Part shown: piece after piece, positions 50,144 through 54,214 of the stretch | How the letters are laid out: the number at the start of each line of letters is the position of its first letter | How positions within the stretch are numbered: the stretch's first letter is position 1 | Assembly: GCA_009838765.1 (NCBI GenBank) | Contig: VXQX01000086.1 | Span: 1-64,000, forward strand | Source of the DNA: Gemmatimonadales bacterium | GTDB taxonomy: Bacteria; Gemmatimonadota; Gemmatimonadetes; Palauibacterales; Palauibacteraceae | Reading direction: 5' to 3' | Length of the DNA stretch: 64,000 bases | Program-made: the position numbers and the translations under genes | The notes under the pieces: generated by a model | What the model was told of the DNA's origin: nothing | The model's input: only the letters and a program-made list of their open reading frames with translations | Database searches by the model: none

Positions 50144-52269
50144 GCGAGATCGGGGCGCGCACCAGGCGGAAGATCGGACTCGCCGCGGTGGTCGCGGGTT
50201 TCGCGCTCGCGGCGGGCTTCGCGTTGGGCGTCGGGCCGATTCAGGCGCAGACGCACGTGACCGTGGACATCGGGGCCCGGGATCCCGCCTTCTCGCCGGA
50301 CGGGTCGACGATCGCCGTCTCCATCCTGGGGAAGATCTGGACGCTTCCCGCCGAAGGCGGCACGGCGCGCCAGCTCACCGACGGGGCCTCGTGGGACACG
50401 CGCCCCGCCTGGTCGCCGGACGGCCGCTTCCTCGCCTACGCCGCAAGGTCCCGCCAGGGGGCGGACATCCTCGTCCGCAACCTGGCCACCGGCGGCGTCC
50501 GCTTCCTGCACCGCGTCCCGGGGTCGGTGGGGCACATGCAGTTCCATCCGGACGGGAGCCAACTCTTCTTCGTCGACGACCGCTCCCAGTACGAGGCGCA
50601 CGTGTGGCGGATCCCGCTGGCGGGCGGCGAAGCGGAACAGTTGACGCACACCCGGAGCTGGCACGAGTGGTCGTTCGCCCTCTCGCCGGACGGGAGTCGG
50701 ATCCTCCTCGAGACGGGGCACTTCGACGGCACGGACCTGTACGAACTCGACCTGGAGGAGATGTCGCTCGAGCGGGTCACGGACACGCCGGAGCGGGAGA
50801 TGGCGGTCGCGTGGAGCCCGGACGGCATGCGCCGCGCGCACGTGATGACGCACAACGGTTACGACGTGATCGTCGCATCGGTACCGGGGTGGCGGAAGCG
50901 GTTCCTGAGCGCCTTCGATCAGAAGCAGCTCGCCTTCCACCCGTCCGGCGAATGGCTGCTCGTCCTCGGCGGGCGGCGGATGCAGCGGCTGGACCTGGAG
51001 AGCGGGGAGTTCACGCCGATTCCCTTCGAGGCCCGGTTCGAGGTGGCCGGGGATCCGGCCGACGACCTGCTGATCACGAACGTCCGCCTGTTCGACGGCA
51101 CGGGCGACGAGGCGGTTCCCGCGTCGGCGGTCCTGGTTCAGGACGGGCGGATCGCCGAGGTCCGGACGGGTGTCGCGGCGGGGACGCCCGAGGTCGCGGC
51201 GGGGACGCCGGTCATCGATGGGGGCGGCCGCATGCTGCTCCCGGGCCTGATGGACAACCACTACCACTACTGGCAGCCCCTCGCCGGCGCCGACCTGCTG
51301 GCCGCCGGGATCACCGCGATCCGCGATCCCGGGTCGGCGATCCAGGACGCGATGGACTTCAAGGACGCGGTGCGTCTCGGCGTGCTGGCCGGGCCCGACG
51401 TGTACACGGCCGGCCCCCTGATCGACGGCCCCGCCGGCTACCACCCCCTGGTCGATGTGAGCATCGACGACCCGGCCGCCGCTCCGGCGCTCGTCCGCGC
51501 GCTGAAGGCGCAGGGCGTGGATCTGCTCAAGGCGTACTTTCTCCTCGACCCGGACGTGCTTGCGGCTATCGTGGCGGAGGCGCGCGTGCAGGAGCTCCCG
51601 GTCACCGGCCACATCGGGGTCCGCACGAGCTGGCTGGAGGCGATCGAAGCCGGCATCAGCGGGTTCAACCACATCCGGGTATGGCGCGACTTCCTCCCGC
51701 TTGAGATCCAGGTTGACGGGCGGGACATGTCGCTCGATGGCGGGCGGAACCCGGTCGGACGCATGCAGGCCGACTGGCGCGAGATCGATCCGGCGAGCCC
51801 CGAGGTCATGTCTCTCCTCGAACTCATGGCCGAGACCGAGACGGCACTCGACCCGACCCTCTACATCCAGCAGGTCGATGACGGCGACCGCTCGCGCTTC
51901 TCGCTCGAGGAGTTCCACACGGCCGGACAGGCGTACGAGCGCATGGGCGAATTCGTCCGGCGCGCGGTCGAGGCCGGCGTCCCGCTCCTCGCGGGCACGG
52001 ACAACGTGGGGCTGTTCAACGAACTCGAGGCGTACGCCGAGGCCGGGGTGCCGAACGCCGCCATCCTGCGGGCCGCGACGGCGAACGGCGCGCGCTGGCT
52101 CGGGAAGGAGGACGACTTCGGCACCGTGGAGCCGGGACGCCGCGCGCACCTCATCCTCGTGGACGGAGACCCGCTGGCCGACATTGCCGACCTGCGGAAT
52201 ATCGATCTCGTCGTGAAGGACGGCGTCATCGTCTTCGGTGCCCCGCGCACCGAACCGCTGGTCCCGTGA
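50140..52269 (+). CDS. Secreted TolB-like propeller amidohydrolase
   Basis: 709 residues from ATG 50140. The signal peptide (about 1-36) precedes five or six TolB/WD40-like blades (PAFSPDGSTIAVSILGKIWT, PAWSPDGRFLAYAARS, ALSPDGSRILLETG, AWSPDGMRRAHV). The C-terminal amidohydrolase starts near residue 305, with HYH in MDNHYHYW, carbamylated-lysine candidate in LLKAYFLL, His in VTGHIGV and FNHIRVW, and Asp in AGTDNVGL. It likely hydrolyses peptide or amide substrates in the periplasm. Overlaps the MBL and CcdA-like genes. Confidence 0.9.
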   Translation: MSEIGARTRRKIGLAAVVAGFALAAGFALGVGPIQAQTHVTVDIGARDPAFSPDGSTIAVSILGKIWTLPAEGGTARQLTDGASWDTRPAWSPDGRFLAYAARSRQGADILVRNLATGGVRFLHRVPGSVGHMQFHPDGSQLFFVDDRSQYEAHVWRIPLAGGEAEQLTHTRSWHEWSFALSPDGSRILLETGHFDGTDLYELDLEEMSLERVTDTPEREMAVAWSPDGMRRAHVMTHNGYDVIVASVPGWRKRFLSAFDQKQLAFHPSGEWLLVLGGRRMQRLDLESGEFTPIPFEARFEVAGDPADDLLITNVRLFDGTGDEAVPASAVLVQDGRIAEVRTGVAAGTPEVAAGTPVIDGGGRMLLPGLMDNHYHYWQPLAGADLLAAGITAIRDPGSAIQDAMDFKDAVRLGVLAGPDVYTAGPLIDGPAGYHPLVDVSIDDPAAAPALVRALKAQGVDLLKAYFLLDPDVLAAIVAEARVQELPVTGHIGVRTSWLEAIEAGISGFNHIRVWRDFLPLEIQVDGRDMSLDGGRNPVGRMQADWREIDPASPEVMSLLELMAETETALDPTLYIQQVDDGDRSRFSLEEFHTAGQAYERMGEFVRRAVEAGVPLLAGTDNVGLFNELEAYAEAGVPNAAILRAATANGARWLGKEDDFGTVEPGRRAHLILVDGDPLADIADLRNIDLVVKDGVIVFGAPRTEPLVP

Positions 52270-53030
52270 TCGACGCGGTCGCAACGGGAGCCGTGGAGGC
52301 GGCCACGCTCGCGGCGCTGCAGATCGAGCCGGCGGGCGGACTCCTCCCGGCGCTTTCCGACAACCCGTTCCTCGCGCTCGGTGCGCTCTTCGCGGCGGGG
52401 GTCCTCACGAGCACGAACCCGTGCATCTGGCCGATGATCCCGATCACCTTCTCGGTCATCTCGGGCACGGCGGGCGAAACCCAGTCGCGAAAGCGCACCG
52501 TCGGCCTCACGCTGACCTACGCCCTGGGACTGGCGCTCCTCTATTCCGTGCTCGGCGTCATCGCCGGGCTCAGCGGTACCGTGCTCGGGTCGATCGGGGC
52601 GAGCTTCTGGGCGCTGTTCGCGACCGGAAACCTCCTCCTCTTCTTCTCGCTGTTCATGCTCGACGTCTTCCCCGTCCCGGTGCCGAAGCGGCTCCTCGCG
52701 TGGGCGGGCAGCCGCGGCGGCGGATCCTACCGCGCCGTGTTCCTCCTCGGAGCGACCTCGGGCATCGTGGCGGCGCCGTGCGGGGCGCCCGCCTTCGCCG
52801 TGGTCCTCACCTGGGTCGTCGCCGAACAGGCGGGTCTCATGGGCTTCGTCTACCTGTTCACCTTCTCCATCGGCATGACGGCCGTGCTCATCGCCGTGGG
52901 GCTGTTCTCGGGGACGCTCGCCGTGCTGCCGAAGTCGGGGACGTGGATGATCTGGATGAAACGGGCCGCCGCCGTCATCATGATCGGGATGGCGCAGTTC
53001 TACCTCATCCGGGCGGGATACTTCATGTGA
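52266..53030 (+). CDS. CcdA/DsbD-like thiol-disulfide transmembrane protein
   Basis: 254 residues from GTG 52266 with six to eight transmembrane segments. TSTNPCIWPMIPITFS and VAAPCGAPAFAVVL hold the two intramembrane cysteines that pass electrons from cytosolic thioredoxin outward. The downstream TlpA-like protein, overlapping by four bases, is the natural acceptor. Supports cytochrome c maturation or peroxiredoxin reduction. Confidence 0.9.
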   Translation: MIDAVATGAVEAATLAALQIEPAGGLLPALSDNPFLALGALFAAGVLTSTNPCIWPMIPITFSVISGTAGETQSRKRTVGLTLTYALGLALLYSVLGVIAGLSGTVLGSIGASFWALFATGNLLLFFSLFMLDVFPVPVPKRLLAWAGSRGGGSYRAVFLLGATSGIVAAPCGAPAFAVVLTWVVAEQAGLMGFVYLFTFSIGMTAVLIAVGLFSGTLAVLPKSGTWMIWMKRAAAVIMIGMAQFYLIRAGYFM

Positions 53031-53608
53031 ACACGAAACCGGTGAACACGAAACGGGGACGGATCCCCCGCCACGCCACGGCCACAGTGTTCGCTGCGCT
53101 GGCCGCGTTCGCCGCGCTCGCCGTGGCGGCGCCTCTCCATGCGCAGGCGGGCGCGGGGCAGGTGAGCCTCGCCCCCGGGACGCAGGGTCCGGACGCCACG
53201 CTGCAGGATCTGGACGGCAACGAGGTCCAGCTTCTCGACTACGCCAATGGCAAGCCGGCGCTGTTCGAGTTCTGGGCCGCGTGGTGCGAGCAGTGCGAGG
53301 GGCTGCAACCCGAAATCGACCGGGTTCAGGCGGATTTCGGCGACCGCGTGAACGTCGTCGCGGTGGCGGTCGCGGTAGCTCAATCGCTGCGCCGCGTCCG
53401 GCGCCACGCGGAGGCGCACGGGGCGGAATACCCCTACCTGTGGGATGCGGACGGCGCCGCGGTGCGCGCCTACTCGGCGACCACGACCTCGATCGTCGTG
53501 ATCCTCGACGGGGAAGGGAAGGTGGCCTACACCGGCGTCGGCCCCGACCAGGACCTCGTCGAGGCCGTCACCGGAATCCTCGCCGCGCAGCAAGCGGGAG
53601 GAGGCTAG
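53027..53608 (+). CDS. Secreted TlpA-like thioredoxin
   Basis: 193 residues from GTG 53027 (another GTG at 53042). Signal peptide ends LHAQAG. The thioredoxin fold follows: APGTQGPDATLQDLDGNEV, active site WCEQC in FEFWAAWCEQCEGLQPE, and TTSIVVILDGEGKVAYTGVG. CEQC is an unusual but acceptable CxxC. It pairs with the CcdA-like protein and faces the selenoprotein peroxiredoxin gene on the other strand. Confidence 0.92.
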   Translation: MNTKPVNTKRGRIPRHATATVFAALAAFAALAVAAPLHAQAGAGQVSLAPGTQGPDATLQDLDGNEVQLLDYANGKPALFEFWAAWCEQCEGLQPEIDRVQADFGDRVNVVAVAVAVAQSLRRVRRHAEAHGAEYPYLWDADGAAVRAYSATTTSIVVILDGEGKVAYTGVGPDQDLVEAVTGILAAQQAGGG

Positions 53609-53617
53609 CTCCGAAGC

Positions 53618-54214
53618 CTACGGGTCCTCGGGCTCCGGGGTCACCTCGTCGATGATGGCGGCGAGTTCGTCGTAGGCGGCGGGGTCGACCTGGTTGAAGC
53701 TCGGGATCACGCCCGCCACGCGCCCGTCGGGCCCCACCACGATCACGGCGCGGCTGTCCACCGCGTTGCTGTCTCTCAATCCTCCGCCGAAGGCGACGTA
53801 CGTCCCCCCGTCGTTGTCCGCGTCGCTACCAAACAGGAAGGGGAAGTCCTCGTCCTTCAGCCATGAGGCGAGTTCGTCGACCGGGTCGTTCGAGATGCCG
53901 ACGAGGACCACGTTCCGGCCCTCGTTGAACAGACTTGCGTACTGATCACGGTACGCTCTCATCTGAACCGTTCAGCCACGCGTCCTGACTCTGAAGAAGA
54001 AGGCGAGGACGACGGTCTCACCCCGGTAGTCGCTGAGGCGGATCGGGTTCTCCAGGGCCCCGTACCGCGTCGCGCCCGGCAGCGCGAAGTCCGGCGCCAT
54101 CTCGCCCACGGCGAGCAGTTGCGAGTCCTGCGCGCTCACCGGGGCCGCGCCTCCGATGGCGAGCGTTCCGGCCAGGCCCAACGCGAGGGCCGCGGCCAGG
54201 ACAAGTCTCCGCAT
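53618..54214 (-). CDS. Selenocysteine-containing secreted peroxiredoxin (in-frame TGA at 53974-53972)
   Basis: One frame from ATG 54214 to 53618 is interrupted only by a TGA at codon 81. Before it: signal peptide (about 1-28, ending PVSAQ), then LAVGEMAPDFALPGAT and RGETVVLAFFFRVRTRG. After it, in the same frame: TVQMRAYRDQYASLFNEG, NVVLVGISNDPVDELASWL, DFPFLFGSDAD and RAVIVVGPDGRVAG. In homologous AhpC/TSA proteins a Cys stands exactly at the TGA (RTxGCTxQMRAYRDQY), the peroxidatic cysteine. Splitting at TGA would leave two non-functional halves, and a SECIS-like hairpin follows. Selenocysteine machinery is not in the window, so a fresh nonsense mutation is the alternative. AAGGA precedes the start. 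Confidence 0.8.
53927..53947 (-). promoter_or_regulatory. Candidate bacterial SECIS hairpin downstream of the in-frame TGA
   Basis: On the mRNA, GAUCAG then a bulged U, AC, loop GCAA, GU and CUGUUC fold as a stem with one U-U mismatch. The apical loop begins about 33 bases after UGA, starts with G, and the bulged U resembles that of the E. coli fdhF element. A second perfect stem, ACGGU/ACCGU, starts directly after the UGA. Folding was done by eye. Confidence 0.55.

Follow-up and report, generated by a model that had tools for sequence, protein, structure and literature searches.

The locus described here raises a simple question: does a UGA codon lying at the catalytic position of a peroxiredoxin gene terminate translation or does it encode selenocysteine (Sec)? 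The window, that is the whole stretch of 64,000 nucleotides analysed from a Gemmatimonadales bacterium (contig VXQX01000086.1 of assembly GCA_009838765.1), carries on its minus strand a frame extending from 54214 to 53618 whose sole interruption is a single TGA at 53974-53972. Sequence comparisons lead us to conclude with high confidence that this gene encodes a Sec-containing peroxiredoxin, probably periplasmic, in which SelB and a hairpin would direct the insertion of Sec at residue 81 instead of a stop.

The read-through product (53618-54214, minus strand) counts 198 amino acids, starts with MRRLV, reads RVRTRG-U-TVQMRAYRDQY around the TGA and ends with EPEDP before a TAG stop at 53620-53618. 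The first-pass annotation had proposed that peroxiredoxin sequence continues on both sides of the TGA, and a profile search of the read-through protein bears this out, as the Pfam AhpC-TSA match covers residues 36-167 (E 9.5e-20). Its placement of the TGA exactly at the reactive cysteine was equally correct: phmmer alignments to solved Bcp-type peroxiredoxins pair the codon (53972-53974, minus strand; U81) with the peroxidatic Cys, F74 with the Pro of the motif and R155 with the Arg in the RAVFVI segment. An AlphaFold2 model computed with 25 homologues as input reached a pLDDT of 88.7 and its best solved matches are peroxiredoxins, AhpE (Z 23.4) and Bcp4. Across 25 aligned rows, Thr78, Sec81 and Arg155 do not vary. 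The Pro of the PxxxTxxC/U motif is replaced by Phe74 in the window's protein; its membership in the peroxiredoxin superfamily therefore rests on the AhpC-TSA domain, the thioredoxin-like fold and the remaining catalytic residues, with the motif in a variant form.

ORF calling splits the frame, as anticipated for standard annotation, into fragments of 80 and 114 amino acids. This split is what a genuine stop would produce, be it in a pseudogene, through a sequencing error or for the sake of a short regulated product. To weigh this reading, the best 80 public loci encoding the same protein were collected, with identities as low as 41%. Of the 79 in which the codon at the site was legible, 78 have TGA and one (L101) has TGC; 20 further Cys copies were gathered, bringing the Cys set to 21. 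The locus displays what is expected of a bacterial selenoprotein, an in-frame UGA flanked by homologous sequence and replaced by Cys in some homologues, and the exchange between UGA and Cys occurs at the peroxidatic codon itself. Residues match and dN/dS is low on either side of the TGA, with values of 0.07-0.43 after it in seven comparisons, indicating that purifying selection continues downstream. The domain match that crosses the TGA also argues against termination, and a truncated peroxiredoxin would be devoid of its catalytic residue. A pseudogene or a sequencing error was rejected on the conservation of the TGA, of its flanks and of the hairpin described below, and we regard a true stop in any form as very improbable.

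Alternatively, the organism could have a modified code in which UGA specifies an ordinary residue such as Trp or Gly. Nothing beyond the in-frame UGA itself speaks for such a change of code. Against it, homologues of the same gene terminate on TGA in 24 of the 79 loci, where the triplet acts as an ordinary stop, and the residue exchanged at the site is always Cys, never Trp or Gly. The genome moreover possesses the machinery dedicated to Sec. Contig C64 of the window's assembly carries selB (370.5 bits for a cut-off of 242) and a tRNA-Sec (Rfam 79.7 bits, cut-off 47) to which ARAGORN assigns the anticodon UCA, and the assembly also contains selA (490.6 bits, cut-off 267.9) and selD (369.7 bits). 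The absence of selA, selB and selC, which had been named in advance as the observation that would contradict a selenoprotein, is not what the genome presents. Reassignment was consequently discarded and appears scarcely conceivable. The selD gene (L027, G000:C43:6923-7849, minus strand) itself displays one UGA at its catalytic position (SHGAG-U-ACKL).

A hairpin predicted to act as a bacterial SECIS element lies at 53937-53956 on the minus strand. It consists of a 6-bp stem, GCGUAC/GUACGC, closing the 8-nt loop CGUGAUCA; the stem begins 15 nt and the loop 21 nt past the UGA. Published bacterial SECIS elements have loops of 3-9 nt with a G in the first two positions, stems of 4-16 bp, a distance of 16-37 nt from UGA to loop and a minimum free energy of -7.5 or lower (PMC13188914), and the hairpin found here, with its 8-nt loop, G in second position, 6-bp stem and 21-nt spacing, lies within these constraints. 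The first-pass annotation had thus rightly predicted a downstream hairpin of the bacterial type, but not its geometry: it had announced a distance of about 33 bases and a bulged U that the stem does not contain, and its G-starting apical loop is incorrect since CGUGAUCA starts with C-G-U and the G comes second. The isolated hairpin has a folding energy of -8.5 in L048 and L060; folding energy by itself is not significant (z -1.66) and was rejected as proof of a SECIS. It is conservation that sets the hairpin apart from chance: the exact stem is present at 15 nt in 118/118 UGA copies (86 distinct, the window's copy counted), with CGGGAUCA (three copies) and CGUGACCA (one copy) as loop variants, and the hairpin is absent from all 21 Cys copies. 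It is formed by codons +6 to +11, counted from the UGA (GCG TAC CGT GAT CAG TAC), whose synonymous sites are frozen in 76 distinct UGA sequences apart from rare CGG and GAC variants; the codons flanking them on either side vary freely. The stem never varies across copies and accordingly offers no covariation. The hairpin sequence occurs once in the window's genome and at most once per genome in 60 relatives. Taken with the alignments, these features make Sec insertion at the UGA very likely.

The distribution of the Sec machinery follows that of the UGA codon. Among 50 genomes harbouring homologous loci, 47 have selB over the cut-off, and these are 47 of the 49 UGA genomes tested; the other two UGA genomes give no selB match or a partial one, and selA is present in both. 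The only Cys genome of the 50, that of L101, yields an elongation-factor-like hit only for selB and no selA. In a wider sample of 395 Gemmatimonadota genomes, 282 have selB above the cut-off and 306 have the peroxiredoxin, which makes selenium use a near-phylum-wide trait of the Gemmatimonadota in this sample. The peroxiredoxin occurs without a strong selB match in 54 genomes, mostly as copies without an in-frame stop, where the codon, when read, is TGC or TGT. Full selB was missed in 13 UGA genomes, 10 of which have selA, whole or partial. The remaining three (G354, G345 and G390), which are 80-82% complete and fragmented into 320-890 contigs, yielded no full selB and no selA. Conversely, selA was detected in none of the 31 tested genomes whose peroxiredoxin copy is without UGA (the codon was read as Cys in 22). 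The Sec-less genomes G184, G366 and G338, whose rows carry the mention of one TGA, were examined as counter-examples and set aside, as each of them has TGC at the site. The proposal of a probable selenoprotein is in this way supported by the Sec machinery, by the UGA/Cys exchange and by the tracking of the UGA by both the hairpin and selA/selB.

Cys copies are almost confined to genomes without selA and selB. The exception is G006, which kept both genes and yet encodes a Cys peroxiredoxin, showing that the machinery does not force the use of Sec. This copy (L170, G006:C3) carries a near-intact relic of the SECIS hairpin (GCGTACCGGGACCAGTACGa) and reads, on the strength of that relic, as a recent Sec-to-Cys change. 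The tree requires at least four changes between Sec and Cys, and the Sec/Phe rows L106 and L107 branch just outside a Cys/Pro clade. The sameness of the hairpin favours one origin of the Sec form followed by repeated losses to Cys, each accompanied by a change to Pro at the motif position; reverse (Cys-to-Sec) or horizontal routes may be alternatives. Candidatus Palauibacter and other Gemmatimonadota MAGs come out as nearest relatives, and the window's genome is itself a MAG of this phylum. Three records titled Gammaproteobacteria (L051, L052 and L054) carry a copy 76% identical to that of the window, much like the copies of Gemmatimonadota MAGs, and are perhaps mislabelled MAGs.

The mature part of the Sec form is free of Cys in 78/78 Sec copies, which defines a 1-Sec enzyme, and the motif Pro position is occupied by Phe in 111, Tyr in five and Pro in one of 117 Sec copies; all 21 Cys copies have Pro. 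L109 and L172 are the only two Sec copies seen with the motif Pro (PKARTKG-U). According to a crystal-structure paper, this Pro acts as a solvent barrier at the active site (PMC3337327). Its replacement by Phe or Tyr in 116/117 Sec copies, combined with the loss of all Cys, might suggest that the selenoprotein is no peroxidase at all but a redox sensor, a chaperone or another oxidoreductase. The invariance of the Thr, Sec and Arg residues noted above and the superposition of the model on the 1-Cys peroxiredoxin AhpE (rmsd 1.6) weigh against such a departure, which we judge unlikely. We retain peroxidase activity as the function of the Sec protein, inferred from its family, and the Phe found at the motif Pro position is probably an accommodation to the selenolate, which is larger and more reactive. 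We further suggest, tentatively and at somewhat less than even odds, that the two positions are coupled, the Pro that is nearly universal at peroxiredoxin active sites giving way to an aromatic residue with the Sec nucleophile and Pro accompanying Cys, in a Sec-specific active site associated with a sequence-constant SECIS across the phylum. If true, this coupling would tie a Sec-specific active site to a SECIS held constant in sequence and not just in shape.

Residues 1-28 (54131-54214, minus strand) form a predicted Sec-type signal peptide, recognized by eye in the sequence and alignment, with an A-x-A type cleavage site between APVSA and QDS; the protein is probably exported to the periplasm. 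A TlpA/ResA-like thioredoxin with a WCEQC motif (53024-53608, plus strand, start codon uncertain; Pfam AhpC-TSA, Redoxin and Thioredoxin) is encoded convergently and is preceded by a gene for a CcdA/DsbD-type membrane electron carrier (52266-53030, plus strand; DsbD_TM E 5.9e-38). Both genes are convergent with the peroxiredoxin gene and do not form a single operon with it. Homologues of tlpA and ccdA lie near the peroxiredoxin at 61/80 and 60/80 loci, respectively, and TlpA/CcdA genes were not found at 19/80. The following pathway can be proposed. The hairpin located 15 nt past the UGA would recruit SelB with Sec-tRNA(UCA), and the ribosome would place Sec at residue 81 rather than terminate. 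By analogy with the family, the Sec81 selenolate, held by Thr78 and Arg155, would attack a peroxide, whether hydrogen peroxide or organic, and be converted to selenenic acid. Since the mature protein is without Cys, no internal bond is possible and a partner must reduce the oxidised Sec. The neighbouring TlpA-like thioredoxin is a candidate electron donor for this step and would in turn receive electrons across the membrane from the CcdA/DsbD-type carrier.

Several known proteins offer points of comparison. AhpE of Mycobacterium tuberculosis, a 1-Cys enzyme, is the closest solved structure (150 residues superposed, 23% identity) and similarly relies on one catalytic chalcogen residue, but has Cys where the window's protein has Sec; AhpE retains the canonical Pro in its motif. 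Bcp/PrxQ-type peroxiredoxins are Cys enzymes, many of them with a second, resolving Cys. Sulfolobus Bcp4 (3hjp) is the best Foldseek match of the model, and the Bcp/PrxQ-type family NF006960 is the best NCBIfam match, at 52.7 bits under a cut-off of 140. Sec-containing peroxiredoxins with a TxxU site belong to an established family of selenoproteins (PMC13188914; PMC1088965), and the present protein is a known kind of selenoprotein in a variant form. PrxU of Eubacterium acidaminophilum (NCBIfam NF040737) shares with it the AhpC/TSA fold, Sec at the peroxidatic TxxU site and a downstream bacterial SECIS. The window's protein nevertheless scores 38.7 bits against the PrxU cut-off of 270 and falls outside that equivalog; it differs by its predicted signal peptide, by the lack of any other Cys and by F/Y where the review gives PxxxTxxU (PMC13188914). 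Some of the 43 Sargasso Sea genes of Sec-containing peroxiredoxin (PMC1088965) may belong to the same group.

In the literature searched, no account was found of the phylum-wide, exported and Cys-free F/YxxxTxxU form. Titles and abstracts of the searched papers pairing selenoprotein with Gemmatimonadetes contain no description of Gemmatimonadota selenoproteins, the Palauibacterales paper is silent on selenium, and the searchable selenoproteome reviews do not mention Gemmatimonadota. With routine annotation the gene would appear as two separate pieces, and its homologues constitute a natural Sec/Cys series of one enzyme, in which the effect of Sec and of the Pro-to-Phe change on catalysis and on resistance to over-oxidation can be tested.

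Another group of selenoproteins, the Prx-like UxxC thiol:disulfide oxidoreductases, belongs to the same Pfam family (PF00578) but is distinguished by its UxxC motif from the window's protein, which has TxxU and no second Cys. The genome likely encodes two of them. L003 (G000:C57:107897-108295; FYRGHWUPYC), with a hairpin GCAGCUC-GGA-GAGCUGC after its UGA, would be the second selenoprotein of the genome, and L004 (G000:C49:9941-10384; FRGRWUPYC), with the hairpin GAAGAGCA-GGU-UGCUCUUC, the third. The loop of L004 is unlike that of the window's hairpin, so that a single SelB has to recognise quite dissimilar loops.
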